A stretch of 64,000 bases of DNA from positions 1 to 64,000 of the forward strand of contig MKVQ01000043.1 of the NCBI GenBank assembly GCA_001899635.1. Reading direction: 5' to 3'. Of this stretch, positions 18,760 through 54,188 are shown piece by piece (positions within the stretch are counted from its first letter, which is position 1; each line of letters opens with the position of its first letter). The DNA is from Myxococcales bacterium 68-20 (GTDB taxonomy: Bacteria > Myxococcota_A > Polyangia > Polyangiales > Polyangiaceae). The position numbers and the translations under genes are program-made. The notes below the pieces were generated by a model. It saw only the letters and a program-made list of their open reading frames with translations, was not told the origin of the DNA and did not search any database.

Positions 18760-18763
<4 letters not shown>
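18053..18763 (-). CDS. ctaE: Cytochrome c oxidase subunit III
   Basis: Core membrane subunit of the heme-copper oxidase. The 236-residue protein has a His/Asp-rich N-terminus ([12 protein letters not shown]) and seven-helix-type hydrophobic pattern. Family marks include [17 protein letters not shown] (about 40-56), the [17 protein letters not shown] helix (about 121-137) and [19 protein letters not shown] (about 166-184), which contains the conserved His pair. It ends in [23 protein letters not shown], the usual subunit III C-terminus. Its ATG overlaps the ctaD stop by four bases (ATGA), showing translational coupling. Confidence 0.95.
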
Positions 18764-20508
<1,745 letters not shown>

Positions 20509-20536
20509 GGTTGGTCTCGCGCGGTTACAGCACGTA

Positions 20537-21511: not shown

Positions 21512-21513
21512 CT

Positions 21514-22482: not shown

Positions 22483-22521
22483 GGCGTGGCGTCTGCGAGG
22501 GGTGTTCGGTGGGACTTGGGA

Positions 22522-23070: not shown

Positions 23071-23095
23071 GGCTGGTCTCTTGCGGTCCGTCGGG

Positions 23096-25407: not shown

Positions 25408-25469
25408 GGACCTCTCTCTCGTCTCTCGTCCGTGCGAAGCCTGAACCTTGGAGCTCGAAGAGCGGAGCA

Positions 25470-27523: not shown

Positions 27524-27526
27524 CGC

Positions 27527-30500: not shown

Positions 30501-30838
30501 AGCACGTGCTCGGGCGCCTTCGAGTACGGCAGGATCTTCTCGACGGGGCGGCGTGCGCAGCCCTCGGCGAAGAGCGCCGCCGAGGCGCCGGCGAAGAACA
30601 TGAAGCCGCGACGCCCGACAGAGGCATCAGCCACGCCCTTCGCGTCGTCCTTGCTCTTCCGGAGCTTCACGAGGCTCGAAGCGATCGAAGAAGCCTTCGC
30701 CTCTTCGAGGCCGAGCGGGAACTCGCTCTCCGCACGCTTCTGCGCGGCAGCAGGGTTCGCCTTGTCCTCGAGGCTCTTCCAGAAGACCTTCGCGCCGTCC
30801 TCCGGCGCCTTGAAAACGTGCGGTTCGCGGCGGCTCAT
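27527..30838 (-). CDS. actB: Alternative Complex III subunit ActB (molybdopterin-like plus iron-sulfur fusion)
   Basis: Largest periplasmic subunit of Alternative Complex III. The 1103-residue protein from ATG 30838 has a Tat-like signal near 75-100 (GRRGFMFFAGASAALFAEGC), a molybdopterin oxidoreductase-like domain (about 110-760) that carries no cofactor in known ActB proteins, and a ferredoxin-like domain (about 850-1080). Iron-sulfur ligands are CTGCNACVVAC (about 868-878), CVQCEEAPCENVC (about 932-944), CANNCPYK (about 970) and CTYC plus CQQACASEC (about 1012-1050). ATG 30838 overlaps the actA stop by four bases, whereas a GTG at 30847 would overlap more. The hydrophobic signal stands some 75 residues from the start, as is usual for ActB. 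Confidence 0.95.
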   Translation of the reverse strand: MSRREPHVFKAPEDGAKVFWKSLEDKANPAAAQKRAESEFPLGLEEAKASSIASSLVKLRKSKDDAKGVADASVGRRGFMFFAGASAALFAEGCARRPVEKILPYSKAPEHVLPGTTSYYASVIPQRGDALGVLVESHEGRPTKIEGNPAHPSSRGGTDAWTQAAIYDMYDPDRGTTPLKGVRQPQGGFGNHTPATWADFDQAFSEILRTAQTDGGARLRILSESTTSPTFLRLRDAIVAKLPKAQIHFWEAAHDGNAREGARTAFGQLLDVVPSYDQAKVILSLDSDFLGTETGSTRASHGFAKGRKLESSKDDMNRLYVVEPAFTTTGMNADHRLRLAAQDVERYLLALAKELSTSHKIDLGGVAAAVAKADATGIPEKWLKVVATELAEARARGIIVAGSRQPARVHALVHALNAALGNVGHTVQYFPAADPHQADPTASLKQLAADIEKNAVNTLVILGGNPVYDAPADLKIADRIKSVLQTVHLSSHVNETAEVCGWYVPRAHVLEAWGDHRAVDGTVSIQQPLIAPLFDGRADIEILARISGDTAPKSFALVQQTVKGSLSIPASITRTWNEALKSGVLGPAARPFGQLEARQTEIAAALAQAKPAAALSPQSLEVTFAPCPKLLDGRHANNPLLLELPDPVTKVTWDNVAFISVGTAKALNVESGRVVRLSREGLGSIDIPVWVTPGQADNSIALHLGWGRQKAGRYGDKHGFDVNPIRSSDATGFAGNVTLRVLDTNELDAMRPRLRKVGMAAGDSLLPANVRPDDPFEADTKKYKISQTQEHDTMEGRPIAIDATLDQYRKNPVFPQFPDTERKDRAENGAAIAVRETGSPDPHTPPLWGEWKEEKFFKNNHRWGMAFDLTSCTGCNACVVACQIENNVPAVGKEQIWRGREMYWLRIDRYFVGLDENDPQIVFQPVACVQCEEAPCENVCPVNATAHSPEGLNDMAYNRCIGTRYCANNCPYKVRRFNFLNYHTSGGFYDDVPETEKMRMNPNVTVRMRGVMEKCTYCVQRIQEAKIKAKREHRPMKDGDVVVACQQACASECITFGDLNDPNSKVSKARAVDRNYRLLSELGTRPRTTYLGKIRNPNPAMGA

Positions 30839-31464
30839 CGGTGGCACCCCGAGCAGTGCTGCGGAGGATTGACGTCAGGCGCCGTCCACCCGGCGGCGGC
30901 CATCTCCGGCTTCCATTCCATGTTGGTGATCTGATCCTTCGGACGGAGATTCGGCTTCGGGTCGCGATGGCAATCGAGGCACCATCCCATCCCGAGCGGC
31001 TGTTCGGCGCGGACCACGTCCATCTGGTCGACGCGGCCGTGGCAGGTCGCGCAGCCGACGCCGGCGGCGAGGTGCGCGCTGTGATCGAAGTAGGCGTGGT
31101 CCGGAAGCTTGTGGACCTGCACCCATTCGATGGGCTTGCCCGACTCCCAGCTGGACCGAACGGGCGCGAGACGCGCGCTATCGGTCTTCACCATCGAGTG
31201 GCACCCCATGCACACCTGCGTGGGAGGAATCATCGCCTTGCCGGCGACCTCCACGTTGGCGTGGCAGTACCGGCAGTCCATGCCCATCTGGCCGACGTGG
31301 AGTCGGTGCGAATAGGGCACGGGCTGCGCGGGGGCGTAGCCGACCGTAAAATTCTTCGGGGTGACGAAGTACCAGATGGCGCCGACGAGCAACGCCGGCA
31401 CCACTGTGCCCACTCCGCCAAGGAGCAGCGGGAGCTTGTTTAGCGACCGGGGAAAGATCTGCAT
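30835..31464 (-). CDS. actA: Alternative Complex III subunit ActA (pentaheme cytochrome c)
   Basis: Membrane-anchored five-heme cytochrome c of Alternative Complex III. From ATG 31464 it has 209 residues: one anchor helix at about 11-33 and a periplasmic domain with exactly five CxxCH sites at 64-68 (CRYCH), 85-89 (CMGCH), 138-142 (CATCH), 162-166 (CLDCH) and 204-208 (CSGCH). The last site is one residue from the C-terminus. The YSHRLHVGQMGMDCRYCH region matches known ActA. An 18-residue longer start at 31518 is rejected because it would disrupt the short basic start before the anchor. It is the first gene of the operon, with a candidate promoter and palindromes upstream. Confidence 0.95.
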   Translation of the reverse strand: MQIFPRSLNKLPLLLGGVGTVVPALLVGAIWYFVTPKNFTVGYAPAQPVPYSHRLHVGQMGMDCRYCHANVEVAGKAMIPPTQVCMGCHSMVKTDSARLAPVRSSWESGKPIEWVQVHKLPDHAYFDHSAHLAAGVGCATCHGRVDQMDVVRAEQPLGMGWCLDCHRDPKPNLRPKDQITNMEWKPEMAAAGWTAPDVNPPQHCSGCHR

Positions 31465-31506
31465 GCGCGCACTCGCGGGTCTCGGCCACGGGCCCTGCGC
31501 CAGATA

Positions 31507-31542
31507 CCGGAACCCCAATAGTTCCGGCCGTGATTTTCACGG
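31507..31542 (-). promoter_or_regulatory. Two adjacent inverted repeats in the act operon leader
   Basis: CCGGAAC (31507-31513) pairs with GTTCCGG (31521-31527), and immediately beside it CCGTGA (31528-31533) pairs with TCACGG (31537-31542) around TTT. They lie 43-78 bases upstream of the actA start, downstream of the candidate promoter. The second is a 15-base palindrome and could be an operator or an RNA hairpin. GTGA-TTT-TCAC has the half-site of CRP/FNR-type proteins but a shorter spacer. Confidence 0.5.
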
Positions 31543-32316: not shown

Positions 32317-33240
32317 TCAGGGATTGACGGCCAGGGCCGCGAACAGGAGCACGAGGTACAACATCGAGAACTTGAAGAGGGACTTCGCCCACTTGTCACC
32401 GGTGCCCGCGCGCAGGCCGTAGCAGCCCCACGTGAAGAAGACCGCGCCGAGGATCGTCGCGATGACCAGGTAGCCGCGACCGGCAAGCCCGAGCGGAACG
32501 ACGAGGAGGCTCGCCGCCACGAGGGCGAAGATCCAGCGGATGATCGTGTGGCGCGACGCCAGCTCACCCGTCACGTTCGGCGTGACCACGAGGCCCGCGC
32601 GGGCGTAGTCCGCCTTGCGAAACAGCGCGATCGCGATGAAATGGGGGATCTGCCACAAGAACATGACGGCGAAGAGGACGACGCCGGCGGCGTCGATGCT
32701 CGCCGTCCCGGCCGTCCAGCCGAGGAGCGGCGGGATCGCGCCCGGGACCGCACCGACGTGGAGCGCGAAATGCGAGTGCCGCTTCAGCGGCGTGTACGCG
32801 AGCACGTAGAGGAGGTTCGCGATCACCGCGAGGAGCGCCGTGAGCGGGTTCGCTCCGATCGCCAGCACCGGGACGGAGAGCGCCGACATGGCGACGCCGA
32901 ACCACAGCGCGAACCGGGGCGCCATGCGTCCCGAGGGCAGCGGGCGGTTCCGTGTCCGCGCCATGTGGCGGTCGGAATCCCGCTCGATATACATGTTCAG
33001 GGCGTTCGCCCCCGCCACGACCAGCGCCAGCCCGATGAGCGTCGCGAGGACGGTCGTCGCGCTCGGCCCGGCGCCGTCCACGCGCCCTGCCCGACCAGCC
33101 AGAAACAGGCCGCCGGCGGCCGTGATCACGTTCATCAGTGTGATCCGCGGCTTGGCCAGCGCGATCACGTCGCGGAACGAGACCTCCGTCCTCCGGACTC
33201 TCGGCTCCTGGATGATGGCGTGAGCGGCCGGTTTCTGCAT
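32317..33240 (-). CDS. ctaB: Protoheme IX farnesyltransferase (heme O synthase)
   Basis: UbiA-family membrane prenyltransferase that makes heme O from heme B, needed for heme a of the oxidase. It has 307 residues and about nine hydrophobic segments. The first polyprenyl-binding motif is NMYIERDSD (82-90) with HMARTRNRPLPSG directly after. The usual first Asp of NxxxD is Glu 86 here, while D88 and D90 remain. YTPLKRHSHFALHVGAVPGA (about 149-168), continuing IPPLLGW, is the second signature. The gene is on the same strand as the act-cta operon, 850 bases upstream of actA. No ctaA (heme A synthase) is in the window. Confidence 0.95.
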   Translation of the reverse strand: MQKPAAHAIIQEPRVRRTEVSFRDVIALAKPRITLMNVITAAGGLFLAGRAGRVDGAGPSATTVLATLIGLALVVAGANALNMYIERDSDRHMARTRNRPLPSGRMAPRFALWFGVAMSALSVPVLAIGANPLTALLAVIANLLYVLAYTPLKRHSHFALHVGAVPGAIPPLLGWTAGTASIDAAGVVLFAVMFLWQIPHFIAIALFRKADYARAGLVVTPNVTGELASRHTIIRWIFALVAASLLVVPLGLAGRGYLVIATILGAVFFTWGCYGLRAGTGDKWAKSLFKFSMLYLVLLFAALAVNP

Positions 33241-33393: not shown

Positions 33394-36300
33394 ATGGGTC
33401 ATTCCTCACGACAATCCCGCGCAGGTGTTCCTTCGTTCGAGACAAAGCTCGAGAACGAAGAAGAGGTCTTGGACTCCATCGTCTCGGCGCTGTCGAAGAA
33501 CGCGCTCGACGCTGCGATCTGGGACGAGCTCCACGACGCCGCGGTGAAGTTCGACCGCGTCTCCGAGCTCGCCTTCGCATACGAGTCCGCGGCGCAGAGC
33601 CGGAAGCTGAAGACGTTCCTGCCTGCCGTACAGGCTGAGCTCTTCTTCCGGGCAGCGACGTTCTTCGGCGACGTGCTCGGCGACGAGTTCGGTGCCACGA
33701 CCTATCTCGAACGCGCGCTCGGCGCCTTCCCGGGTCACGCAGGCGCGTTCGAGCGCATCGACGCGCAGCTCACGCGCACCGACGACAACAAGAAGCTCGC
33801 CGAGCTCTGTGTCCAGACGTCGGCCCACCGGCCGAAGCCGGAACAGATCGCGATCCTCGAGCGCGCCGCCCACCTCTTCGAGCGCGCGATGCTCGAGGAC
33901 AAGGCGATCGAGACGTACCAGCAGCTCGTCCGTCTCGAGCCCGGTGACGAGGCGCTCCGCAACGCGCTCGAGGCGCGCTTCGTGCGCGCGAACCGCTATC
34001 GCGACGTCGCGCGCATGTTCGAGCAGGCCCTCGCCGCCGATCCTCCGCCGCCCGCAGACGAAGCGGCACGGGTCCGGCAGAAGCTGATCGAGGTCTTCGC
34101 CAACCAGCTCAAGGAGCCCGAGCGCGCGATGCCTCACGTCGAGGCGCTCCTCGAGGTCGATCCGTCGAACGCAGAGGCGCGACGCGTCGCGACGCGTCTC
34201 CTCGAGAGCAAGGGCCTCGCCGCACGGGCCGCCGCGGCGCTCGCTGCAGGCGCGACGACGACGGACGAACGCGCGCGCTACCTCGGCATCGAGCTCGAGC
34301 ACACGCGTGGGCCGCGACGACGCGACGTCCTCCGCCGGATCGGCATCCTCAAGCAGGACGAGCTCGACGACGCGCAGGGCGCCTTCGAGGCGTTCGAGCA
34401 GGCGCTCGGGATCGATCCCGCCGACGACGAGCTTCGCCAGCGCTACATGTCGCTCGGCATCCAGCTCAGAGGCCCGCTCGAGGTCGCGCGCACGTTTGCG
34501 CGCGTCTCGACCGTCGCCAAGGACGCCGGCATCCGCTCTCGCATCACCGCGGAGATGGGTGACCTGCTCCTCCGCGGCGGCGACACCAAGCGTGCCCGCA
34601 CGACGCTCGCCGGCGTCCTCTCCGCGCAGAGCGCGGATCACGGCGCCGTCCTCACGGCCGCGCGCGCCCTCGCGAGCGTCTACGAGAGCGAAGGCGACGT
34701 GAAGAACCTCGTCGAGGTGCTCCAGCGCGTCGGCGAGCTCTCGCCGCTCGAAGGCGAGAAGCAGCTCGCGAACGAGCGCATCGCCGAGATCTGCTCGAAC
34801 GAGCTGGGCGACGCCGAGCGCGCGATCGGCGCCTGGCGACGCCTCGTCGACTCCCCTGCCCGGGCCCGGGCCCTCGAGGCGCTCGAGCCGCTCTACGAGC
34901 AGCGCGAGCAGTGGATCGACCTCTCCTTCGTGCTCGAGCAGCGCGCGAAGGACGCTGCCGACGATCGCGACGCGGCGCGCGCGCTTGCCTATCGCGCCGC
35001 CGAGGTGCTCACGACGAAGGCGAAGGACGTGGGCAGCGCGTCCGAGGCGTGGCGCCTGCTGGTGGCCGCATACGGCCCCGCGCGCGACGTCTACGAGCAG
35101 TGGCTCCCGCTGCTCGAGCAGCAACGGCTCTGGCCCGAGCTCACCGAGGCGCTCACGAAGGACGCCGAGCTCGCGTCCGAGGAGGAGCGCCCGCTCGTCC
35201 TCGCGCGCCTCGGGAACGTCTATCTCCAGCGCACCCGCGACACCGACGCTGCGATCGACGCATTCAAGCGCGCGCTCCATCTCGACCCGTCGGAGAAGAC
35301 GAGCCGCGCCACCCTCGAGAAGCTGCTCCTCGGCGCCGAGCACCGACTCGCCGCTTCGGCCGTGCTCGAGCCGATCTACCGCGGCGAGCTCAACGCGCAG
35401 GGGCTGCTCCGCGTCCTCGACATCCGCGCTGCTTCATCTCCGCTCGTCCAGGATCGCCTCGCAGCTCTCGAGGAGGCCGCGCACGTCGCCGAGTCCGTCT
35501 CGAAGGACAAGACGGTCGAGGTCATCGCACGGGCCCTCGCAGAGTCCGTCGAGAGTCAGCAGCCGATCGGGCCGTGGCTCCAGCGCTTCACCCGCTCCTC
35601 CGAGGGCATCGATCCGAAGCGCCGCGCGGCGCTCCTCGGCAAGGCGCTTGGAGATCGTCCGATCGACTCGCAGGAGCTCCTCGGGCTCGCCGTGCTCGTC
35701 GGAGAAGAGAGCTACGCCGCCGGTGACGTGGCCGCGGCGCTGGCAGCCTATCGCCGGGCGCTCGCCTTCGAGCCGTCGTCGGCCGACCTCATCGCACGCG
35801 TCGATCAGCTCCTCCAGGAGCAGGGCAATCCGCAAGAGCGCGTCGCTCTCTATCGCGCAGCGCTCGAGCGCGGCGCAGAGCCCACCCGCCGCCGGCAGCT
35901 CCTTCACAGCATCGGCACGATCGAGCGCTTCGAGCTCATGAAGCCGGAGGCCGCGATCGGGGCCTACCGCCGCGCCATCCTGGACGATCCCACCGACCGC
36001 GAGGCGTACAGCGCGCTCGTCGAGCTCTACACCGAGACCGAGGCCTGGGACGAGCTGTGCGATCTGCTCGAGGACTACCTCGCGCACGCGAGCTCGCCGG
36101 AAGAGACGCGCGCTGCCCGAGCGCAGCTCGCGCACATCGCGACGGCCCACGGACAGGGCGATCGCGGCGCGGTCCACGCGGGCGCGCTCCTCGCCGACCC
36201 GCAGCTCGGCGAGGCCGAGCTCGATCTCATCGAGCACGTCGCGACGACGCTCGGCGATCACGTCCTCCTCCGCGGCGTCCTCGAGCGCCGCGTCCGCGAG

Positions 36301-39300
36301 TCGGCAGATCCGAAGGAGCAGGTGGAGTGCCTCGATCGGCTCGCCACCCTCGCACAGCAGAGCGGCGAGGAGAGCCACGCCGTCGAGCGCCTCCGCCAGG
36401 CAGCAGACATCGCCCAGGGCATGGGCGACGAGCCCGCCGCGATCGGCCTCTACGATCGTCTCCGCACCATTGCTCCACGGGACGAGCACGCCACCGGACA
36501 GCTCGTCGAGCTCCACGAGCGCAGCGGGAGCTGGCACAAGGTCCCGCCGCTGTACGCGGTGCTCCTCGAGCTCGCGACCGACGACCTCTCGCGCGTCGCG
36601 CTCCTGGGACGCCTCTCGCGCACGTTGGCCGATCAGCTCGGCGATCCCGAGCGCGCGTTCGCCGCCGCTCGGAGCGCGTTCGCGCTCGCTCCCGAGGACC
36701 GCGACGTGCTCGCAGACGCCACGTCGCTCGCGGTCCGCGCCGGACGGACCATGGAGCTCGCCTCCGCGATCGACGAGGCGCTCGCTGCCATGACGGAGAC
36801 GACGGACGGAGTGCGCGCGGAGCTCACGCTCGCGAAGGGCCGCGTGCTCGCGTCACACGAGGCCACCTGGGGCGAGGCGGCGTCCTCGTTCCGGGACGTG
36901 CTCGAGGGGAATGCCGACGATGAGACCGCCGTTGCCGCGGCGGAAGCCTTCGCGGAGCTGCTCCGCGGAATGCCGCGGAGCGACGAGAAGGCCCGCGACG
37001 TCCGCTGGCTCCACGAGTGGCGCTTCGAGCACGCTCCCACCGAGCGACGCACGCGCGCGCTGCTCGCGTGGGCGGAGTCGGAGGAGCTCGAGCTCGGGGA
37101 CGAGCCGACGGCGCTCGGGCTCTACAAAAAGGTGCTGGAGATCGACGAGGGCGACCTCGATGCGCTCGCCGCGGTCTCGCGGCTCTCGCTCGCCCAAGGC
37201 GACGTCGAAGGCGCGCTCACTGCGCTCTTGTCCCGTCGCTCCGCGTCCGAGGGCGAGGCGAAGAACGCGCTCGACATCCAGATCGCGACCATCCTCGTCG
37301 ACCGCCCGGGCCGCGCCGACGAGGCGCTCGATCGAATCGCCGGCGTGCTCGAAAGCGCGCCGCACGACACCACGGCAATCGAGCTCGCCGCCCGCCTCCT
37401 GGCGAACGCCGAGGTCGCGGAGCGCGCAGCGAAGGTCCTCGAGACCTCGCTCGACGCCGTCGACGATCCCGACCAGAAGATCAACGTCTTCGATTGCCTC
37501 ATCACCCAGGGCGAGCCGCGGCGCGATCTCTACGAGCGCTACCTCGACACCCTCGCCGAGCGAGGTCGCGCCGACGCGGCGTACGCCGTGGCGCTCCGTG
37601 CGGTGCGTGCCCTCCCTGCCGAGCAGGCACTGTGGGATCGCGCCGAGCAGATCGCGCGCCAGCTCTCCTCGGCCGAGCCGCTCGCCGACACCTACGAGCA
37701 GGTGCTTCGCCTCGAAGTGCGGCGCGAGCCGGGCGACGTGGGGCCGAGCCTCGCCGAGCTCGCGCGCGCGGCGAACGAGCCGCCGCACGACGAGGAGACC
37801 TCGGGCTACGGGCGCCTCGAGAGGGCCGAGGCCGTCGAGCTCGGACAGCGCGCCGTCGCGTTCTACGAGGAATGGTACGAGGACAGCGACCGCGTCGTGC
37901 GCGTCCTCGAGCGTCTCCTCGAGATCGAGCCGGAGGACACCTGGGCGTTCGACCGCCTGAAGCTGATCTTCGATTCGAAGGAGCGCTGGGACGATCTCTT
38001 CTCGCTCTACGACCGCGCCGCGGCCTCGGCCGACAAGGACCGCAAGTTCGAGCTCCTCGAAGAAGCGGCCCAAATCGCGAAGGACTTCGCCAACCACGCG
38101 CAGCGCGCGATCCGCTACTTCGAGCAGCTCCTCGATCTCCGCCCCGGCAACGTGCGGCTCACGTCGGCCCTCGAGCGCCTCTACGAGCGCCACGGTTGCC
38201 ACCGCGAGCTCATCACGCTCCGCGGCGTACGTCTCCTCTCGCTGCCGCGCGAGGAGGCGCAGAGAGAGCGCGCGCGCATCGCGGCCCTGTGGCTCGACGA
38301 GCTCAACGACACCTCGAGCGCGATCATCGTCATCGAGGACATCGTCGCGAATCAGGACGGAGCCGACAGCGTCGAGACGACCGACCCCGTGATCGACGTC
38401 ACCGGGCTCCTCGAACGCGTACTGGCGACCGCGCCGCGAACGGCAGACATCCGCGAGACGGTCCCGCCGCCCTCCGACGGCCGGCGTGACTCGTACTTCC
38501 CGATGGCGAACAAGCGCGGTCTGGTTCGCCAGCGCGCGGCGGCTCTGTTGAAGGAGCGCTACAACACGCCCGGCAAGGAGGCCGATCTCGCCCGGGTGCT
38601 CGAGGTCGAGCTCGAGGTCGTCAAGAGCGCGAAGGAGCGCATCCGGCGCCACCAGCGGATCGCCGGCCTCTACTTGCAGCTCGGCAACGACGAGGCGGCG
38701 CTCGAGCACTTCGTCCAGCTCGTGTTCCTCGAGCCCGAGGTCGGCTCGCACCGCCAGGAGCTCGCGTCGATCGCCGCGCGCATCGGCCGTTTCGATCGCC
38801 TCGCCGAGGTGCTCGTCTCCGCGGCCGACGACCGCCACGACGACGCCCTGAAGATCGAGCTCCTGATGAGCGCCGGCGACGTCACGGCCGAGAAGATCGG
38901 GGACATCGAGCGCGCGATCGAGCTGTTCTTCCGGATCCTCGCGATCTCCCCGATCGCCGACGACGCGCTCCTCGAGGCCTGCCGTCACGTCGAGCCGCTC
39001 CTCGCGAAGGCCGATCGCCGTGGCGATCGCCTGGACGTCCTCGAGCGCCTCGCGATCCTCGAGCAAGCCCCCGAGGTGAAGTGGCACGTGCTCGGCGAGG
39101 CCGCACGCCTCGCGATGGGCCTCGACGAGAACGACCGCGCCATCTGGGCGTGGGAGGGACGCCTCGAGGCGAAGCCCGGTGACCCCGAGGCGCTCGACGG
39201 TCTCGCCTTCCTCTTCGAGAAGGCGCAGCGCTGGCGTCCGCTCATCGACACGCTGAACAAGCGGGCGCAGCGAGACGACCGCGATGCCGAGCAGCGGCGC

Positions 39301-42300
39301 GCCGATCGCGTCCGCGTCGCCCAGATCCTCAGCGAGAAGCTCGACGCGACCGAGGAGGCGATCGACACCTGGCGCGACGTCGAGGCGACGTTCGGGCACT
39401 CCGAGGACGGAACGCGCGCGCTCGCGGGCCTCTACCGACTGACGAAGCGCTGGGCGGAGCTCGCCGAGCTCCTCGGCGGAGCGGCGGCCCGCGCCACGAC
39501 CACCGCCGACAAGGCCGAGACGCTCCGCGAGCTCGGCGACGTCCAGCGCGAGCAGCTCGACGAGATCGCCCTCGCGATCGCCAGCTACGAGCACTCGCTC
39601 ACGACCGACCCGCGCACCGAGGGATCGCGCTCCGGCCTTCGCGCGCTCATCAAGAAGTCGGAGCATCGGGCCGAGGTCGTTCGCGTACTGCTCGCCGCCT
39701 ACGTGGCAGCCGACGACTGGAAGCTCATCCTCGACATCACCGAGCATCGGCTCAGCGCGACGGAAGAGACGCCGGCGCAGATCGCGGTCCTCATGGAGGC
39801 GGCGCGCGTCTCCGAGGATCGCGCGGACGACGCCGAGGCAGCGTTCACGCTCGTCCGCCGCGCGCTCCTGCTCGACCCGAGCCAGGACACCACCGTCTCG
39901 GAGATCTTCCGGCTCGCCGAGAAGACGCGCGCCTGGCGTCCCCTCGCCGACGCGCTCCGTGAGTGCATCGACGGCCGAGACGACCTCGCATGGGCACGCG
40001 CGCTGCGCTTCCGCATGGGCGCGGTGCTCGAGACACACCTCGACGAGGCACGCGCGGCGCTCGAAGCCTACGTCCACGTCGGCAACCAGGAGCCGGGCGA
40101 TCTCGAGTCGGCCAAGGCCGTCATTCGCGTCGCCGGAAAGACCTCCCGCTGGGACGCCGCGGCCCGGGCGCTCGTCGAGGCAACGCGCAAGCGCGACGTG
40201 GTCGAGCAGAGCCTCGTCGACGCCGTGGAAGAAGCTGCCCTCGCAGCGATGGGTTGGGATGCGGTCACGTTCGCGCTCGCCTCGCTGATCCACGACGGCG
40301 GCGGGCTCGCGCCCGGCCTCGCTCGTGACCTCGAGGCCGCCATCGCGATCTGGCACCGCGACCGGCGCGGTGATCCCGACGCTGCCGAGGCCGCGTACGC
40401 ACGCGCGCTGTCGCATGATCCCACGAACGCGCCGCTCCTCGCCGAGCTCGCGAAGCTCCAGCGACGCGCGCGCGGCCGACCGCTCGTCGACAGCCTCCTT
40501 CGGCTCTCGCAGACCACCGGCGGCGACCTCGATCTGCTCGGCGAGGCCGCCGACGTCGCGGTCAACAGCGTCGGCGATCGCGCGCTCGCGAAGTCGATCT
40601 TCGATCGCCTGCTCAAGCTCGCCGCGGAGCGCTGGCTCGGCGCGACCGAGCCGAACGTCCTCACCAGCGGTACGCCGCAGGCTCCGGAGAACTACGTCGA
40701 TCGCGCGACGCGCGAGCTCGTACGCATCCACGGCGACGACGGCGATCACGACAAGGTCGTCCAGCTCCTGACGGACACCGCGCACCTCCCCTGGAAGACC
40801 GAGAAGGCGCGCGCGCTCCGTCACGAGGCCGCGCTCGTCGCGGTCGAGAAGCTCGGCGCGGCGGACCGCGCGATCGCGATCTACCTCGCGCTCATCGAGG
40901 AGGACCCGCACGATGCCGAGGCGGTCGCGCGCGTCGTTGCGCTGTACGAGGCCGGCGGCCGTCGAACCGAGCTGCTCGAGCTGAAGCGCCGGCTCGTGGG
41001 GACGGCGCGCGAGGTCGGTGAACGCCTCCAGCTCCGGCTCGAGATCGCCGCGCTCGAGGACGGGCAGGACGCCGTCGATCGCGCGATCGAGGCGCTCCGC
41101 GAGAACCTCGGCGAGTCGTCGCGCCACGACGCGACGGTGAAGATGCTGGCGTCGATCTTCCAGCGCGAGAACAAGATCGAAGAGCTCGAAGCGCTCCTCG
41201 CCTCGCAGGCCCAGCTCGGCGAAGACGCCGGAGACAAGGCTCCGAGCGCGGACTTCTTCTGGCGCGCGGCCGAGGTGGCCGAGCTCCAGATGAAGGACCT
41301 ACGACGCGCCATCGCGCACCTCCGGCGCGTGGTCGCGCTCGAGGAGCGCGCGCCGGCATACGACGCGCTCGCGCGGCTGTCGACCGACACGAAGGCCTTC
41401 GACGACGCCGCCGGCTTCCTCGATCGCCTGCGCGAGCTCACCGACGGCCCGGCCCGCGCCGCGGTCACCCTCCGCCTCGCCGACGCGCTCGTCTCCGCAA
41501 ACCGCAAGCCCGAGGCTCGCCAGCGCCTCGAGTCGGAGATCGGCCGCGATCCCGAGGCCGACAGCGTCCGCGTGCGCCTCGCCGAGACCTACCGCGCCGC
41601 GCAGGACTGGCCGGAGCTCGCGGCGCTCCTCACCGAAGGAGCGCACTACGCGCCGGACAAGGCCACGCGCCTCTCGCGCCTCCGCGAGGCCGCGGAGCTC
41701 CATCGCGTGCGGACGGGAGAGCCCGAGAAGGCGATCCCGCTGCTCGAACAGGCGTCCGATCTCTCGCCCGACGAGAACGCGGTGAAGCTCGCGCTCGCCG
41801 ACGCGTTCGGCGCAGCAGGCCGCTTCGACGAGGCGCGCGCCCTCCTCCGGACGCTCGTCGAGGCGTTCGGCGGGCGCCGCCCGAAGGAGCGCGCCCCCGT
41901 CCACTACCATCTCGCGCGGCTCGATCTCGCCGTGGGCGATCGCGCCCGCGCGCTCGTCGAGCTCGACGCTGCGACGCGAATCGATCCGGCCAACCCGGAG
42001 ATCCTCCAGGCCCTCGCCGAGCTCGCGCGCGACGACGGACAGCTCGAGCGCGCCGAGCGATCGTACCGCGCGCTCCTCACCGTGCTCCGCCGTCAGGAGG
42101 AGCCGACGGAAGAGACCGCGATCACGCGCTCGGAGGCGATGTTCGAGCTGGCGCAGATCGCGACCCGCCAGGGGGAGACCGATCGCGCGAAGGAGATCCT
42201 CGAGAGCGCGTTCGAGCTCGCCCTCGAGAACGCGGTCGAGGCACGTCGTCTCGAAGGAGCGCTCCGGCGCGCCGGCGATCACGTGCACCTCGCCCGCGCG

Positions 42301-45300
42301 CTCGGTGCACGCCTCGAACGCGGCGGCGCCGAGGACGAGGCCGCGCTGCGCACCGAGCTCGGTGGCCTCTACGATCAGCACCTCGATCGCAAAGACGAGG
42401 CGCTCGAGATGATCCTCCGCGCGCTCGACCTCGAGCCCGCGAACGAGCCCGCACACGACGCGGCCTTCCGCCTCGCAGGCGCGACGGGGAAGATGCCCGC
42501 ATACGAGGCGCGGGTCCGAGACCTCGCCGAGTCGAAGGCCGAGAGCGATGGCGAGCTTGCCGGGATGCTCTACCTCCGCCTCGCGCGCATCGCCGAGACC
42601 GAGAAGAAGGACGACCGCGACGTCGCGGAGCTCTACGAGAAGGCGATCGCCGCGCGGCCCGAAGACCGCGAGCTGCTCTCCGCGCTCGCGAGCGTCTACG
42701 AGCGCCTCGGAGACGACGGCGGTCAGGCGCGCGTGCTCGGAATGCGCGTCGAGCTCGACGCCGCGGCCGGCGGCGCCTCTCCCGACGCACTCTACCGGCT
42801 GGCGCAGCTTCGCTTCCGCTCCGGCGACGTCGACGCAGGCTGCGATGCCTTCGAGCAGGCCTTCGAGGCCGACCCCGATGCGGATCGCGCCGACGAGCTG
42901 CTCCGCGCCGCCGCGGATGCGCATCCCGATGCCGAGCGCATCATCGACATCTACGAGCGCCTCGCGCGGGCGCCGGGCCGCGAGCGCTCGCTCGTCGACG
43001 CGCTCGTCCGACGCTGGTCGCTTCCGGGCGCAGGCACGGAGCCGATGAAGGAGGCCGTCGAGCTCGCAGAGAAGCTCGAAGACTTCGGCCTCGCCGAGTC
43101 GCTCCTCCGTCGCTTCCTCGAGCGGGAGCGCCCCAGTGATCTGAGCGAAGAGGAGGACCGCGAGGGCCGCGTCTGGGCGCTCGCGCTGCTCGCGTGGCGC
43201 TGCGAGGAGTCCGGTCGCGTACGCGAGGCCGCCGTCCTGAAGCGCGAGGCCGCCGAGCTCGCGGAGCCCGAGGCCGCGCGCCGCTTCCTCTTCGAGGTGG
43301 CAGGCCTCGCGTCGGGTCCCCTCGACGACCTCCGGCTCGCTTCGTCGATCTACGAAGAGCTCCACGAGAAGGAGCCGCAGGACCGCGACGCGTGGGAGCT
43401 GCTCCTCGACGTCTACCGCCGCCTGGACGACTACTCGAAGCTCGTCGCGCTCGTCGCGCGGATCGTCGAGTTCATCGACGACGTCGGCGAGCGCTCGAAG
43501 CTCCGGCTCGAGAGCGTCAAGGTCCAGATGCAGAAGCTGAAGCTCTCGGACGACGACGCCGCAGAGCAGCTCCGTGACATCGTCGACGAAGACCCGGCGC
43601 AGGTCGACGCTGCCCTCTTGCTCGTCAGCATCTACGAGCGCAACGGACGCGAGGACGACCTCGCGGAGCTCCTTGCGCGCCAGCTCGACGGCGCGAAGGA
43701 TCGTCAGGACGCCGACGCAGTCGGGTCGCTCTCGCGCCGCCTCGGGCAGCTCCTCGAGAAGCGCGATCGGTCGCAGGCACGCGACGTGTACTACGCGGCG
43801 CTCGAGTGGGACCCGCGCTCGCGAGAGATCCTCGTCGCCCTCGAGCGGCTCCACGACGAGGACGCGGACATCGAAGCGCGCTCCGACGTGATGGAGCGCC
43901 GCCTCCAGATCGAGCAGGGCGACGATGCCGAGGCGCTCGCGCTCTCGCTCCATGACACTCGTCGCGCGCTCGAGGACCACGAGGGCGCGCTCCGGGTGCT
44001 CGAGATCGGCTATCGCGGCGCCCCGCGCAGCATGCAGCTTCGCGATCGCCTCGAGATCGTCTACCGCGACACGAACGAGTACGGAAAGCTCGCCGTTCTC
44101 TTCACGCTCGATGCGCGCGGACGCCAGGACGCGAAGGAGAAGAGCGGACGCCTCCGCGAGGCGGCGGCCATCTACCGCGACGAGCTCTCGAATCCCGAAG
44201 AGGCCTCGAAGGTCCTCCGCGAGGCGCGCGCGGCCGATCCGACCGATCCGCTGCTCCTCGTCGAGCTGGTCGACACCCTCTCGGCCGCCGGTGAGCTCCG
44301 CGGCGCCGCCGACGAGCTCACTGCGGTGATCGAGCCGCTGGATCCGAGCGATGCGCTCCGTCCCGATCTCGTCGGGCGTCGTGCGCTGCTACGGAGCCGT
44401 CTCGGCGAGATGGACGGCGCGCTCGAGGACTTCGAGGAGGCCGTCGGCAAGGGCCAGGACCTGCGCGCCTACTTCGCCGATCATCTCGGCAAGATGGCGC
44501 TCCAGGCGGCCGGCCGTGGCGACGCCGCCTCGTGGCGGACGCACCGCCTTCGCATCGCAGGGCTCCGGCTCGACGTCGGCGACATCGAGGAGGCGCGCAA
44601 CGTCCTCACCGAGCTGCTCAAGACGGACAGCAAGGACAGGGCGACCCTCCGCGCGATCGCGCACGTCGACGAGCTCGAAGGCCGCTGGGACAGCGCGAGC
44701 GCGACGTACCGGCGCCTCGTCGGCCTCGAAGACGGCGAAGGGATCGTCGCCGCGGCGCTCAAACTGCTCGAGACGTGCGAGAAGGCAGGCCGTCTCGCCG
44801 ACGCGCGCGGTGGTCTCGAACGCGCGCGCATGGCCGCGCCCGACGACGCCGCGCTCCGCGAGCGCCTCGCATGGCTCTACGAGCAGCTCGGCGCCTTCAA
44901 GGAGCTCGCGGAGCTCGTCCTCGAAGAGGCACGCTCCGCCGGAGACGTCGCGCCTCGCTTCGAGGGGCTTGTTCGCGCCGGTCAGCTCTTCCTCGAAGCG
45001 GCCTCCGATCCGAACGCGACGCAGCAGCTCGACAACACCGCCGCGATCGTGCCGCTCGAAGAAGCGCACGCGCTTCGGCCCTCGGACCTCGATTGCGCTG
45101 CGCTCCTCTCCGATGCCTACGTCGCCGGCGGCCGCATCGACGAGTCGCAAGAGCTCCTCCTTCGCACGATCGGCACGTTCAAGGGCCGCCGCGCGCGCGA
45201 GCTCTCGGCGCTCTACCATCGCCTCGCGCGCATCGCGGAGATCCTCGGCGACCGCGCCACCGAGCTCCAGCACCTCACGACCGCGCTCGACATGGACGCG

Positions 45301-45567
45301 CAGAACGGCGTCGTCGCCTCCGAGCTCGCCTATCTCGCGATGGAGCTCGGCAACCTCGACGTTGCCCAGCGCGCGCTCCGCCAGATCACGATGCTCAAGG
45401 TGGCGGCGCCCCTCCCGAGGGCCCTCGCCTACCAGCACCTCGGTGAGATCGCCCGCCAGCAGGGCGACCTCCGGCGCGCGATGATGCTCGTCAAGCGCGC
45501 GGTCGACGAGGATCCGTCCCTCGACAGCGCACGCCTTCTCCTCGATCAGCTCCAGTCCGAGAGCTGA
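33394..45567 (+). CDS. Giant TPR-repeat protein (4057 residues)
   Basis: One uninterrupted frame of 12.2 kb encodes 4057 residues built almost wholly from tetratricopeptide-like helix pairs; no enzymatic domain, signal peptide or membrane segment is seen. The repeat theme is A-x-x-x-Y-x-x-x-L-x-x-D-P, then A-x-x-x-L-x-x-L-Y, then a Trp turn. At least a dozen copies of the Trp turn are visible: ERWDDLFSLYDRA, QRWRPLIDTLNKRA, KRWAELAELLGG, EAWDELCDLLEDYL, QDWPELAALLTEG, EQWIDLSFVLEQRA, RLWPELTEAL and others. The double module is about 100-110 residues, so some 35-40 modules are expected. Composition is rich in Glu, Asp, Arg, Ala and Leu with very few Cys. The likely form is a long alpha-solenoid scaffold in the cytoplasm. 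Large TPR scaffolds in myxobacteria serve in motility, predation and signalling, but none is identified here. The gene diverges from ctaB. Confidence 0.95.
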   Translation: MGHSSRQSRAGVPSFETKLENEEEVLDSIVSALSKNALDAAIWDELHDAAVKFDRVSELAFAYESAAQSRKLKTFLPAVQAELFFRAATFFGDVLGDEFGATTYLERALGAFPGHAGAFERIDAQLTRTDDNKKLAELCVQTSAHRPKPEQIAILERAAHLFERAMLEDKAIETYQQLVRLEPGDEALRNALEARFVRANRYRDVARMFEQALAADPPPPADEAARVRQKLIEVFANQLKEPERAMPHVEALLEVDPSNAEARRVATRLLESKGLAARAAAALAAGATTTDERARYLGIELEHTRGPRRRDVLRRIGILKQDELDDAQGAFEAFEQALGIDPADDELRQRYMSLGIQLRGPLEVARTFARVSTVAKDAGIRSRITAEMGDLLLRGGDTKRARTTLAGVLSAQSADHGAVLTAARALASVYESEGDVKNLVEVLQRVGELSPLEGEKQLANERIAEICSNELGDAERAIGAWRRLVDSPARARALEALEPLYEQREQWIDLSFVLEQRAKDAADDRDAARALAYRAAEVLTTKAKDVGSASEAWRLLVAAYGPARDVYEQWLPLLEQQRLWPELTEALTKDAELASEEERPLVLARLGNVYLQRTRDTDAAIDAFKRALHLDPSEKTSRATLEKLLLGAEHRLAASAVLEPIYRGELNAQGLLRVLDIRAASSPLVQDRLAALEEAAHVAESVSKDKTVEVIARALAESVESQQPIGPWLQRFTRSSEGIDPKRRAALLGKALGDRPIDSQELLGLAVLVGEESYAAGDVAAALAAYRRALAFEPSSADLIARVDQLLQEQGNPQERVALYRAALERGAEPTRRRQLLHSIGTIERFELMKPEAAIGAYRRAILDDPTDREAYSALVELYTETEAWDELCDLLEDYLAHASSPEETRAARAQLAHIATAHGQGDRGAVHAGALLADPQLGEAELDLIEHVATTLGDHVLLRGVLERRVRESADPKEQVECLDRLATLAQQSGEESHAVERLRQAADIAQGMGDEPAAIGLYDRLRTIAPRDEHATGQLVELHERSGSWHKVPPLYAVLLELATDDLSRVALLGRLSRTLADQLGDPERAFAAARSAFALAPEDRDVLADATSLAVRAGRTMELASAIDEALAAMTETTDGVRAELTLAKGRVLASHEATWGEAASSFRDVLEGNADDETAVAAAEAFAELLRGMPRSDEKARDVRWLHEWRFEHAPTERRTRALLAWAESEELELGDEPTALGLYKKVLEIDEGDLDALAAVSRLSLAQGDVEGALTALLSRRSASEGEAKNALDIQIATILVDRPGRADEALDRIAGVLESAPHDTTAIELAARLLANAEVAERAAKVLETSLDAVDDPDQKINVFDCLITQGEPRRDLYERYLDTLAERGRADAAYAVALRAVRALPAEQALWDRAEQIARQLSSAEPLADTYEQVLRLEVRREPGDVGPSLAELARAANEPPHDEETSGYGRLERAEAVELGQRAVAFYEEWYEDSDRVVRVLERLLEIEPEDTWAFDRLKLIFDSKERWDDLFSLYDRAAASADKDRKFELLEEAAQIAKDFANHAQRAIRYFEQLLDLRPGNVRLTSALERLYERHGCHRELITLRGVRLLSLPREEAQRERARIAALWLDELNDTSSAIIVIEDIVANQDGADSVETTDPVIDVTGLLERVLATAPRTADIRETVPPPSDGRRDSYFPMANKRGLVRQRAAALLKERYNTPGKEADLARVLEVELEVVKSAKERIRRHQRIAGLYLQLGNDEAALEHFVQLVFLEPEVGSHRQELASIAARIGRFDRLAEVLVSAADDRHDDALKIELLMSAGDVTAEKIGDIERAIELFFRILAISPIADDALLEACRHVEPLLAKADRRGDRLDVLERLAILEQAPEVKWHVLGEAARLAMGLDENDRAIWAWEGRLEAKPGDPEALDGLAFLFEKAQRWRPLIDTLNKRAQRDDRDAEQRRADRVRVAQILSEKLDATEEAIDTWRDVEATFGHSEDGTRALAGLYRLTKRWAELAELLGGAAARATTTADKAETLRELGDVQREQLDEIALAIASYEHSLTTDPRTEGSRSGLRALIKKSEHRAEVVRVLLAAYVAADDWKLILDITEHRLSATEETPAQIAVLMEAARVSEDRADDAEAAFTLVRRALLLDPSQDTTVSEIFRLAEKTRAWRPLADALRECIDGRDDLAWARALRFRMGAVLETHLDEARAALEAYVHVGNQEPGDLESAKAVIRVAGKTSRWDAAARALVEATRKRDVVEQSLVDAVEEAALAAMGWDAVTFALASLIHDGGGLAPGLARDLEAAIAIWHRDRRGDPDAAEAAYARALSHDPTNAPLLAELAKLQRRARGRPLVDSLLRLSQTTGGDLDLLGEAADVAVNSVGDRALAKSIFDRLLKLAAERWLGATEPNVLTSGTPQAPENYVDRATRELVRIHGDDGDHDKVVQLLTDTAHLPWKTEKARALRHEAALVAVEKLGAADRAIAIYLALIEEDPHDAEAVARVVALYEAGGRRTELLELKRRLVGTAREVGERLQLRLEIAALEDGQDAVDRAIEALRENLGESSRHDATVKMLASIFQRENKIEELEALLASQAQLGEDAGDKAPSADFFWRAAEVAELQMKDLRRAIAHLRRVVALEERAPAYDALARLSTDTKAFDDAAGFLDRLRELTDGPARAAVTLRLADALVSANRKPEARQRLESEIGRDPEADSVRVRLAETYRAAQDWPELAALLTEGAHYAPDKATRLSRLREAAELHRVRTGEPEKAIPLLEQASDLSPDENAVKLALADAFGAAGRFDEARALLRTLVEAFGGRRPKERAPVHYHLARLDLAVGDRARALVELDAATRIDPANPEILQALAELARDDGQLERAERSYRALLTVLRRQEEPTEETAITRSEAMFELAQIATRQGETDRAKEILESAFELALENAVEARRLEGALRRAGDHVHLARALGARLERGGAEDEAALRTELGGLYDQHLDRKDEALEMILRALDLEPANEPAHDAAFRLAGATGKMPAYEARVRDLAESKAESDGELAGMLYLRLARIAETEKKDDRDVAELYEKAIAARPEDRELLSALASVYERLGDDGGQARVLGMRVELDAAAGGASPDALYRLAQLRFRSGDVDAGCDAFEQAFEADPDADRADELLRAAADAHPDAERIIDIYERLARAPGRERSLVDALVRRWSLPGAGTEPMKEAVELAEKLEDFGLAESLLRRFLERERPSDLSEEEDREGRVWALALLAWRCEESGRVREAAVLKREAAELAEPEAARRFLFEVAGLASGPLDDLRLASSIYEELHEKEPQDRDAWELLLDVYRRLDDYSKLVALVARIVEFIDDVGERSKLRLESVKVQMQKLKLSDDDAAEQLRDIVDEDPAQVDAALLLVSIYERNGREDDLAELLARQLDGAKDRQDADAVGSLSRRLGQLLEKRDRSQARDVYYAALEWDPRSREILVALERLHDEDADIEARSDVMERRLQIEQGDDAEALALSLHDTRRALEDHEGALRVLEIGYRGAPRSMQLRDRLEIVYRDTNEYGKLAVLFTLDARGRQDAKEKSGRLREAAAIYRDELSNPEEASKVLREARAADPTDPLLLVELVDTLSAAGELRGAADELTAVIEPLDPSDALRPDLVGRRALLRSRLGEMDGALEDFEEAVGKGQDLRAYFADHLGKMALQAAGRGDAASWRTHRLRIAGLRLDVGDIEEARNVLTELLKTDSKDRATLRAIAHVDELEGRWDSASATYRRLVGLEDGEGIVAAALKLLETCEKAGRLADARGGLERARMAAPDDAALRERLAWLYEQLGAFKELAELVLEEARSAGDVAPRFEGLVRAGQLFLEAASDPNATQQLDNTAAIVPLEEAHALRPSDLDCAALLSDAYVAGGRIDESQELLLRTIGTFKGRRARELSALYHRLARIAEILGDRATELQHLTTALDMDAQNGVVASELAYLAMELGNLDVAQRALRQITMLKVAAPLPRALAYQHLGEIARQQGDLRRAMMLVKRAVDEDPSLDSARLLLDQLQSES

Positions 45568-51173: not shown

Positions 51174-51701
51174 TCAGAGCAGATCGCCCGGCTCGAGCAT
51201 CAGCGCCTCGTAGAGGATGTCGAGGCGCTCCTTCAGCTCGTCGTTGTTGGGATCGTGCTGGTTGGCGGTGATGAGCTGGATCCGGGCGTCGTCGAGCCGG
51301 CCCTGCGCGAGGAGCTCGTCCGCCTTCGCCGCGTGCAGCTTCCCCTTCGTCGTGCGCGCGATCATGAAGAGCGTGCGCTGCTCGAGCTTCTTCGTCGGCT
51401 CCACGGCGCGCTCGTCGAGCTTGAGCTTGCCCTTGTCGAGCTCGGCGTCGTAGCGCTTCCGGAAGGCCGGCTTGCGCAGGATGTTGTACGCCTCCGCCGC
51501 GCGCTTGAAGACGGACGCTGCTGCCGATGCGACCTCGGGACCTTCCTCGACGAAGCGGTCGGGGTGGCACCGGAGGGAGAGATCGTGGAACGCCTGCTGG
51601 ATCTCGCTCGGCGAGGCGTCATCCGAGACCCGGAGGATCTCGTAATAGCTCATCGTCTCGAGCGACTCGGCCCATGCAAGGAACGTCGACGACTCCGCCA
51701 C
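51174..51701 (-). CDS. DnaJ-like J-domain protein
   Basis: Putative Hsp40-type co-chaperone of 175 residues. The J-domain lies at about 18-85, with YYEILRVSDDASPSEIQQAF and the essential HPD in CHPDRFVEEG. The C-terminal half (about 120-175) is a TPR-like helix pair (LLAQGRLDDARIQLITANQH and DPNNDELKERLDILYEAL) instead of the zinc and substrate domains of DnaJ. GTG 51701 is the outer start; ATG 51653 (MSYYEIL) is also possible. It follows the DnaK-like gene by 48 bases on the same strand, so it probably stimulates that protein. Confidence 0.88.
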   Translation of the reverse strand: MAESSTFLAWAESLETMSYYEILRVSDDASPSEIQQAFHDLSLRCHPDRFVEEGPEVASAAASVFKRAAEAYNILRKPAFRKRYDAELDKGKLKLDERAVEPTKKLEQRTLFMIARTTKGKLHAAKADELLAQGRLDDARIQLITANQHDPNNDELKERLDILYEALMLEPGDLL

Positions 51702-51749
51702 ATCCCGATGATAGCGCCGGCCGGCGATCGCGTCATGACCCGACTGACG

Positions 51750-54188
51750 TCAGGCCACGTGGTGACGAGCCTGACGCGCGACCATCGCGCCGATGTCCTC
51801 GGCGTCGTTGTTGGTGCCGAGGAGCCGCATCGTCGCTGCCGTCTCGCGTCCCGTGTCCTGATCGCGAGCCCGGACGTTGAGGATGCCGTCGGCATCGAGC
51901 TCGAACGTGACGGCTACCTTCACCTCTCCACGCCTGGCACGGCGCAGCCCCGAGAGCTCGAGATCGCCGAGCCGGGTGTTCTCCGCGAAGCGTGAGGACT
52001 CGCCCTGCGCGACGCGGATCGAGACGGTGTCCTGACCGTCGCTCGCGGTGAGGAACGTCCGGGTCTTCTCGCACGGCACCGGCGAGTTGGCGGGGATCAA
52101 GATGTCGGCGTAGCCACCGACCGTCTCGACGCCGAGGCTGAGCGGTGTCACGTCGATGAGCAGTGGCGTCGACGCCGACGTCGCGATCGCGCTTCCCTGC
52201 TGGAAGCGCTCCGGCGTGAGCGGTGGACCGAGATCGAGCTCGAGGTTCCGGAAGAGCTGACTGCCCGAGCCGAGCCCCTCGCTCACGGAGCGCGCCGACC
52301 GGGACGGCGGCGGCCCCGAAGGCAGCGCGAGATCGAGGTCGGGCGCCGCGACGATGTCGCCTTCGTCGTGACCGGGATCGTCGAGCTCCGGGATGCCGGA
52401 CAACGAGAACTCGGCCGCCGCCTCGAGGTCGAACGCCGACGGCGCGACCGATCGCCGTGCCGGCTTCGGTCCCGGTGGCGGATCGCCCACGGGACTGCGT
52501 ACCGGAGTGCCTTCGATCGGACGCGCCGAGGCGCGTGCGCCGACGAAAGACTCTGCGTGATCGGTCTGCCCTCGGTTCAGCGCTGGCGCGTTCGGAGCCG
52601 TGATCGGAACCTTCGGCGCGGACGGAGGCCGTGCTCCGGTCTGACGTGGCGGCTCGATCGGGAACTGCTCCATCGGAAGCGTCTGCGTCCGTGGCTTCGG
52701 AACCGGAGGCGGCTGCCTCGGGACCGGAGGCGGTTGCTTCGGAACCGGAGGCGGCGGCTTCGCGGCAGCGGCCGGCCTCGGAGGAGCGGGCGCCGCGTCC
52801 GGCACATCGGCGAACGAGATGATCGCCGGCGCCTTGTTGAAGGTGAAGAACACCGGCTCGGCCGGAGGCGGAGCGGGCGGCGGCGGTGCGCCTAGGTTCT
52901 TCGGCAGCGGCGGCGCGCGCGGGACATCCATGGGCGCGGGCGTCGGGTCGGCGTCCGGCGGGCGGGTCGGCACCTGCTCGCCGCTCGCCCTCGGCTGCGC
53001 GTTCGCGAGCTGATCGTGCGCCGAGCGCCGCTTGTGCGCGGCCTTCGAGCGGTTCAGCGCATGGGCCTGGATCGCCGCACCGAGCGCGACGACCTCGTCG
53101 GGGTTGACCTTCAGGTGCGGCGGCTGACCGAAGAGCTGCTCGACCATGCGCGCGACGAGCGGCATCCGGGTCGAGCCGCCCACGAGGATGACGCGATCGA
53201 ACTCGCGCGGCGACAGGCCGACGTGCTCGATCGACTGTCGTGCGACGGCGATCGTCCGCTCGAGGAGGGGTTTGGCGAGAGCCTCCATCTCCTCGCGCGT
53301 CATCACGAAGGGCATCACGATGGGCTGGCCGCCTTCGTGGTAGCCGATGCCGGAGAGCTCACGCTGCGCCTGATACGCGGTCGAGAGCTCCTTCTTGAGC
53401 TCCTCCGCCATGAAGGCGAGCCGCGCTGCACTGGCCGGATTCGTGCGCGGATCGACGTTGAACCGCTTCGCGACTTCGAGCGCGATCCTCTCTGCAAGGA
53501 CGCGGTCGAGGTCGTCGCCGCCGAGCGCCGTATCACCGGCGGTCGCGAGCACCTCGAACACGTTGCCGGTGAGGTCGAGGAGGGTGACGTCGAACGTGCC
53601 GCCGCCGAGATCGTAGACGCCGATCTTCTCTGCCTTCGAGATCGACTGTCCGTACGCGAGCGCGGCGGCGGTCGGCTCGTTCAGGATGCGCATCACGTCG
53701 AGGCCGGCGAGCTTGCCTGCGATCTTCGTCGACGCGCGCTGGAGATCGTTGAAGTTGGCCGGAACGGTGATGACGGCGCGATCGACCGGCTGACCGAGGG
53801 CCGCCTCGGCGATCGCCTTCGCCCGCCGCAGGACGAACGCGCTGATCTCGGGCAGCGCGTAGGCGACGTCGCGCGCGAGGACCATCGTGCTGTTCTTCGT
53901 TCCCTGGACGAGCTTGAACGGGAAGCGCGCCTTCGCCCCCTGCACCTCGTCCGAGTCCCAAGGCCGGCCGAGGAGCGGCTTCACCGAGAAGATCGTGTTC
54001 TCGGGGTCGATGAGCCGCCTCTCGCGCGCCGCCTCTCCGACGAGCACGGTGCTCGAAGGATGGAACGAGACGACGGACGGGAGTAGCCGGCGACCCTGAT
54101 CGTCCTCGAGCGTGACGGCCACGCCGTCCACGACAGCCGCTACGACGGTGTTCGTGGTGCCGAGGTCGATTCCAATCGCAACGCTCAT
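51750..54188 (-). CDS. DnaK-like (Hsp70) protein with large proline-rich insert and no lid
   Basis: Hsp70 homologue of 812 residues with unusual architecture. The nucleotide-binding domain is complete (about 1-378): GIDLGTTNTV (6-15), ITVPANFNDLQR (140-151), VYDLGGGTFDVTLLD (191-205) and VILVGGSTRMPLV (333-345). In normal DnaK a linker of about ten residues leads to the substrate domain. Here about 297 residues (379-675) are inserted, very rich in Pro, Ala and Arg, with tandem QPPPVPK/QPPPVPR units at 485-498 and no predicted fold. The substrate-binding beta domain follows at about 676-790 (LLIDVTPLSLGVETVGGYAD, then AQGESSRFAENTRLG). The helical lid of about 100 residues is missing; the protein ends at 812. 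It is next to a J-domain protein. Rapid peptide release is expected without a lid. No grpE is nearby. Confidence 0.95.
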   Translation of the reverse strand: MSVAIGIDLGTTNTVVAAVVDGVAVTLEDDQGRRLLPSVVSFHPSSTVLVGEAARERRLIDPENTIFSVKPLLGRPWDSDEVQGAKARFPFKLVQGTKNSTMVLARDVAYALPEISAFVLRRAKAIAEAALGQPVDRAVITVPANFNDLQRASTKIAGKLAGLDVMRILNEPTAAALAYGQSISKAEKIGVYDLGGGTFDVTLLDLTGNVFEVLATAGDTALGGDDLDRVLAERIALEVAKRFNVDPRTNPASAARLAFMAEELKKELSTAYQAQRELSGIGYHEGGQPIVMPFVMTREEMEALAKPLLERTIAVARQSIEHVGLSPREFDRVILVGGSTRMPLVARMVEQLFGQPPHLKVNPDEVVALGAAIQAHALNRSKAAHKRRSAHDQLANAQPRASGEQVPTRPPDADPTPAPMDVPRAPPLPKNLGAPPPPAPPPAEPVFFTFNKAPAIISFADVPDAAPAPPRPAAAAKPPPPVPKQPPPVPRQPPPVPKPRTQTLPMEQFPIEPPRQTGARPPSAPKVPITAPNAPALNRGQTDHAESFVGARASARPIEGTPVRSPVGDPPPGPKPARRSVAPSAFDLEAAAEFSLSGIPELDDPGHDEGDIVAAPDLDLALPSGPPPSRSARSVSEGLGSGSQLFRNLELDLGPPLTPERFQQGSAIATSASTPLLIDVTPLSLGVETVGGYADILIPANSPVPCEKTRTFLTASDGQDTVSIRVAQGESSRFAENTRLGDLELSGLRRARRGEVKVAVTFELDADGILNVRARDQDTGRETAATMRLLGTNNDAEDIGAMVARQARHHVA

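Follow-up and report, generated by a model that had tools for sequence, protein, structure and literature searches.

A Giant TPR Solenoid Protein from a Polyangiaceae Bacterium and Its Place among Three Groups of Giant TPR Proteins in Myxococcota

Introduction

Within a 64,000-nucleotide stretch of DNA from Myxococcales bacterium 68-20 (the window), one frame stays open for 12.2 kb, raising the question of whether so long a frame is one gene and, if so, what kind of protein it encodes and what that protein might do. Giant TPR proteins have a precedent in the gliding machinery of M. xanthus, whose GltI/AgmK (MXAN_4863) is a TPR protein of 4132 aa with no signal peptide or membrane segment (PMC3169522 Table 1); its length is given as 3812 aa in PMC9120999. 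The gltI gene sits between gltH and gltJ, beside gltG-gltH, in the glt cluster, and gltI and its group A companions are present in Sorangium, Haliangium, Plesiocystis and others, at times in several copies (PMC3169522). Among giant TPR proteins, a described role was found for the GltI kind only, and the literature searched held nothing specific on the giant TPR proteins of Polyangia.

Results

The 12.2 kb frame is one gene under purifying selection

The frame begins with an ATG codon and has the coordinates of the original prediction:

33394..45567, + strand: giant TPR gene, group III long form (see below), 4057 aa, based on its ORF, coding composition, orthologs, dN/dS and TPR profiles

Its GC contents at the three codon positions are 0.79, 0.46 and 0.90, a pattern that holds across all 600-base slices of the gene, and the probability of 4057 open codons, computed at 68.8% GC, has a natural logarithm of about -84. 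In nine genomes of the same genus it is likewise one collinear ORF, about 4040-4060 aa long, with the same start and end, including the start motif PSFExKLENEEEVLD. In comparison to its nearest ortholog, dN/dS is 0.171 overall and stays at 0.12-0.30 in all windows of 450 codons, indicating that purifying selection acts over the entire protein. Two long antisense ORFs (1424 and 893 aa) overlap the gene and are the usual shadow cast by a GC-rich gene. Composition, orthologs and dN/dS agree with the predicted 4057-residue protein; 33394-45567 is one real gene encoding one protein.

The protein is a TPR solenoid with locally uneven repeats

The Pfam model TPR_19 matches the protein across 15 stretches (E = 1.5e-50; 169.9 bits vs a cut-off of 25), TPR_8 does so with E = 3.7e-33 (111.3 bits vs a cut-off of 25.7), and further TPR models also exceed their cut-offs. 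The sole other Pfam model above its curated cut-off is ARM_TT21_5th, itself a TPR-type segment; no domain family of a non-TPR kind exceeded its curated Pfam cut-off over the whole 4057 aa, bearing out the predicted absence of other domains. NCBIfam returned TPR families only, each below its cut-off, and a SEL1 model appeared in neither the Pfam nor the NCBIfam results; repeat detection, on which the solenoid claim had been staked, therefore yields significant TPR matches and no SEL1 match, and the claim stands. Profile searches matched the protein to designed TPRs, OGT, TTC21B, LapB and SKI3.

The autocorrelation of the sequence peaks at 34, 38 and 72 residues, which shows that TPR units of two lengths alternate. 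A 70-position profile of the double-TPR module (70-72 residues), built from relatives of the giant, finds 51 copies above a threshold of 5 bits in the protein and 0 in three shuffles; its consensus includes the DP...A...L and GRWDELAALL themes that had first suggested the repeat. AlphaFold models of residues 3250-4057 (mean pLDDT 91.3; 53 aligned sequences) and 1395-2230 (mean pLDDT 89.4; 49 aligned sequences) consist of helical hairpins, so that profiles, module counts and two all-helical models agree on a TPR solenoid. The first of these models has 44 helices in 808 residues, or 18.4 residues per helix; scaled to the whole chain, an estimated 110 or so TPR units would result, and known TPR geometry suggests a length on the order of 100 nm if the chain were extended. 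The repeat had been described as even; its theme does recur along the chain, but matches are poor at residues ~660-775, 1138-1233 and 1626-1758. No 19-residue hydropathy window is convincing as a membrane helix (the maximum, 1.64, lies within a repeat), and a hydrophobic segment that would resemble a signal peptide is missing from the N-terminus, in accordance with the predicted lack of both.

Top structure matches of the models are the TPR scaffold subunits Ctr9 (of Paf1C), Ski3 and IFT139/TTC21B, with Naa15 lower. TM-scores to these named subunits are low, about 0.1-0.26, and the matches thus show a common repeat class, not a common shape.

Conserved blocks and linker

Comparison with relatives divides the chain into the following parts:

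33394..37593, + strand: N-terminal third, residues 1-1400, found in the long form only (comparison of forms)
37816..38388, + strand: conserved core block, residues 1475-1665, LGQRAVxFxEEW...EAAQxAKDFA...LERLYER (conservation among relatives)
38356..38538, + strand: low-confidence linker, residues 1655-1715 (AlphaFold model, genus conservation)
41794..42093, + strand: residues 2801-2900, peak of within-genus conservation and site of a GGRRPKE loop motif (conservation)
45091..45564, + strand: residues 3900-4057, conserved C-terminal block that includes a second GRRxxE loop at residue 3930 (conservation)

When the protein was split into pieces and compared with itself by BLAST (an unsplit run gave the trivial match only), residues 82-705 proved to be a divergent duplicate of residues 1482-2146 (25%, E = 1e-26). 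Residues 979-1475 align in register with the group II giants described below, which also have the C-terminal stretch from about 3704 to 4055 in common with the window giant. The low-confidence linker lies within the last of the three poorly matching regions. Within it, at residue 1696 of the protein (window 38479-38496), a genus-conserved G[RH][RH]DS[YF] motif of the GRRDSY type is a possible phosphosite or docking site. Further, the pattern GRRxxE...LARxxxxxGD occurs in two loops, at residues ~2826-2849 and 3930-3953 (window 41869-41940 and 45181-45252), both of which fall in conservation peaks.

Giant TPR proteins of Myxococcota form three groups

Two further giant TPR frames lie elsewhere in the window's genome, one on contig C2 (3891 aa) and one on contig C6 (3815 aa). 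Throughout Myxococcota, giants with lengths of 3300-4200 aa occur repeatedly. Comparison across families yields three groups: I (the C6 type), II (the C2 type) and III (the window's). In both I and II, members from distant families align collinearly along more than 3000 residues, at about 29-35%. Group II was split in a quick tree (where row II_G024C5, probably an antisense frame, was disregarded), and its grouping rests on collinear BLAST matches because the tree gave no single clade; group III is a separate clade, supported at 100%. Larger and unassigned frames also exist: TPR frames of 7130 aa (G229:C83) and 7030 aa (G180:C40) in family f47 reach almost double the length of the window giant, and a 4215-aa giant TPR frame outside the three groups (G206:C44:680750-687262; L197) lies about 25 kb from a group I giant.

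Group III was defined by a core block match of E < 1e-35 together with a collinear C-terminal region of about 2600 residues, both of which the window giant has. A strong match (E < 1e-35) was present in about 68 of the 115 sampled Polyangia genomes, and a core-block scan of named genomes (residues ~1475-1665) puts the window among Labilithrix-like Polyangiaceae. Spread across Myxococcota had been proposed as a check; in the phylum-wide sample, matches of E < 1e-35 come from Polyangia only, while giant TPR proteins as such are phylum-wide. Two size forms occur, each of steady length. The short form (about 2600-2670 aa, equivalent to residues 1395-4055) is found in Nannocystis, Sandaracinus and many Polyangia MAGs, and the long form (about 3480-4100 aa), with its extra N-terminal third, in Labilithrix, Sorangium and Byssovorax. 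The split is imperfect in the wider sample: within the window's family, some genomes also have copies of 2620-2775 aa, and a 3928-aa copy is found in one genome from a different family.

The protein had been put forward as an undescribed lineage-specific machine. In that form the claim is not supported: giants are phylum-wide, three are in this genome and GltI/AgmK is already described. Judged from sequence, the lineage-specific part is the group III subgroup, seen in Polyangia only in the samples taken; the giant TPR kind is already known from GltI/AgmK, and the group III branch is without a description in the literature found.

Gene neighbourhood

The following genes flank the giant:

18760-31518, - strand: Alternative Complex III genes and cytochrome oxidase (COX1 and a cytochrome c-fused COX2), a side observation
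32317..33240, - strand: heme o synthase (CtaB), divergent neighbour of the giant; linkage within the genus only
51174..54188, - strand: DnaJ-domain protein and Hsp70-like protein, downstream of and convergent to the giant; linkage within the genus only

The ctaB and Alternative Complex III/cytochrome oxidase genes lie on one side, and the DnaJ/Hsp70 genes together with gltBD on the other. The Hsp70-like protein (812 aa; window 51750-54188, - strand) matches the Hsp70 model mainly in the ATPase part, at residues 4-380, and the DnaJ-domain protein near it has 175 aa. Within the limits of their contigs, the nine same-genus genomes retain much of the window's gene order. A functional link of the giant to ACIII/ctaB or to DnaJ/Hsp70 was considered and rejected, as the synteny is confined to the genus when compared with 12 loci from other genera.

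Across 62 group III loci there is no constant neighbour and no operon conserved beyond the genus, and conserved gene neighbourhood outside the genus yielded no partner for the giant. Recurrent features of these loci are Ser/Thr kinases, an HU-like protein and within-genus synteny in Nannocystis. The HU-like Bac_DNA_binding protein lies downstream of the giant, at a distance of about 100-600 bases, at five loci (L103, L104, L108, L109 and L111) from Sorangium, Byssovorax and one related MAG, and a family without a Pfam match lies upstream of a few group III copies.

Glt-type clusters contain or adjoin group I giants, not those of group III. In the genomes examined, group I giants of other families sit behind a GltG-like FHA/TonB protein, and contig C6 carries the best GltG-like match of the window's genome, some 16 kb away from the 3815-aa group I giant. 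No GltD-H or GltJ neighbour was found in the window or at its relatives' loci, and none of the GYF/TonB (GltJ-like) proteins in eight genomes has a giant beside it. Judged by synteny, the Glt-type giant would be that of group I and not that of group III.

Discussion

We consider it moderately likely that the window giant is a cytosolic assembly scaffold for a Polyangia-specific multiprotein assembly. The original prediction of an enormous cytosolic scaffold is sustained as far as a huge TPR solenoid without an export signal is concerned; because export signals and other recognisable domains are both absent, the protein is probably cytosolic, and a scaffold role is its natural reading. Partner binding at the conserved blocks and a functional kinship with the Glt-type giants are, like that location and role, what we infer. 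The chain would fold into a near-continuous superhelix made up of some 110 TPR units, whose groove and conserved blocks (~1475-1665, 2801-2900 and 3900-4057) would bind partner proteins and, by analogy to large TPR subunits elsewhere, may keep them in a fixed order. The likeliest setting would be a Polyangia-specific assembly akin to the Glt-type envelope machines of GltI-type giants, and not the Glt cluster itself. Kinship with the Glt-type giants does not prove a common function, and group III is without a GltG-like neighbour. A bolder version is possible but doubtful: group III might form the spine of a new machine, separate from Glt and present across the class Polyangia, as a TPR filament some 100 nm long in which the N-terminal third, added or kept mainly in Polyangiaceae, widens the set of partners.

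Several other explanations were weighed against the scaffold. The giant could be the GltI of its lineage, serving gliding motility, as its size class, TPR content and missing signal match those of GltI (PMC3169522); that is highly improbable, because it is the C6 giant, near the GltG-like gene, that aligns collinearly with the giants of Glt-type clusters, while group III is a separate clade with no Glt genes nearby. Its position between ctaB/ACIII and DnaJ/Hsp70/gltBD, an arrangement partly kept within the genus, would instead suit an assembly factor for Alternative Complex III/cytochrome oxidase or a DnaJ/Hsp70 co-chaperone. None of these genes (ctaB, Alternative Complex III, DnaJ/Hsp70, gltBD) is near the group III gene at 12 other-genus loci, however, and synteny kept in one genus takes in unrelated genes too, making such a partnership very unlikely. 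Least credible of all is that repeat expansion passively produced a protein of little specific function; TPR arrays grow easily and length differs between the forms, but within either form the length is steady, and all segments have a low dN/dS.

A role as a Ser/Thr kinase signalling scaffold, whose docked kinases phosphorylate partners or the GRRDSY-type linker, draws on the kinase genes beside group III giants at 12 of the 62 loci, where 14 of 15 kinase ORFs share the giant's strand and one ends 4 bases from the giant's frame at L144 and L149 and 188 bases from it at L142. A kinase is also near a group I giant, and the genus-conserved linker motif could, at a guess, be a phosphosite. Polyangia are rich in kinases, however, and the 15 ORFs in 572 kb of flanks would be about the density to expect from that background. 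Moreover, the loci are related to each other, the pattern was spotted post hoc, and no kinase is among the scanned neighbours of the window gene; altogether, the kinase scaffold is an unlikely explanation.

Overall, the Myxococcota proteome regularly includes giant TPR solenoids, and the window's genome alone encodes three or more. As a class-wide, strongly conserved putative scaffold of 2600-4100 residues, group III is a clear target in the search for a new assembly in predatory and social bacteria, and some of its hosts (Sorangium, Nannocystis) are culturable.

By sequence, the closest giants to the window giant are those of group II (contig C2, 3891 aa, with relatives phylum-wide), which match it at about 30% over some 1200 residues round the core and again over the C-terminal 350 residues; they are not collinear with it end to end and stand apart from it in the tree. 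Among smaller proteins, Ctr9, Ski3, IFT139/TTC21B and Naa15 are long TPR solenoids around which multiprotein complexes are organised, as proposed here for the window giant, but they are eukaryotic, several times shorter and without specific homology to it beyond the repeat class. The bacterial proteins LapB, MamA and PrsT also have TPR repeats and profile matches to the giant, which is far under their NCBIfam family cut-offs; they are much shorter, and LapB and PrsT are membrane-linked. Unlike gltI, the window gene is without glt neighbours, yet its product is like GltI/AgmK in being a giant TPR protein of Myxococcota with no signal or membrane segment.
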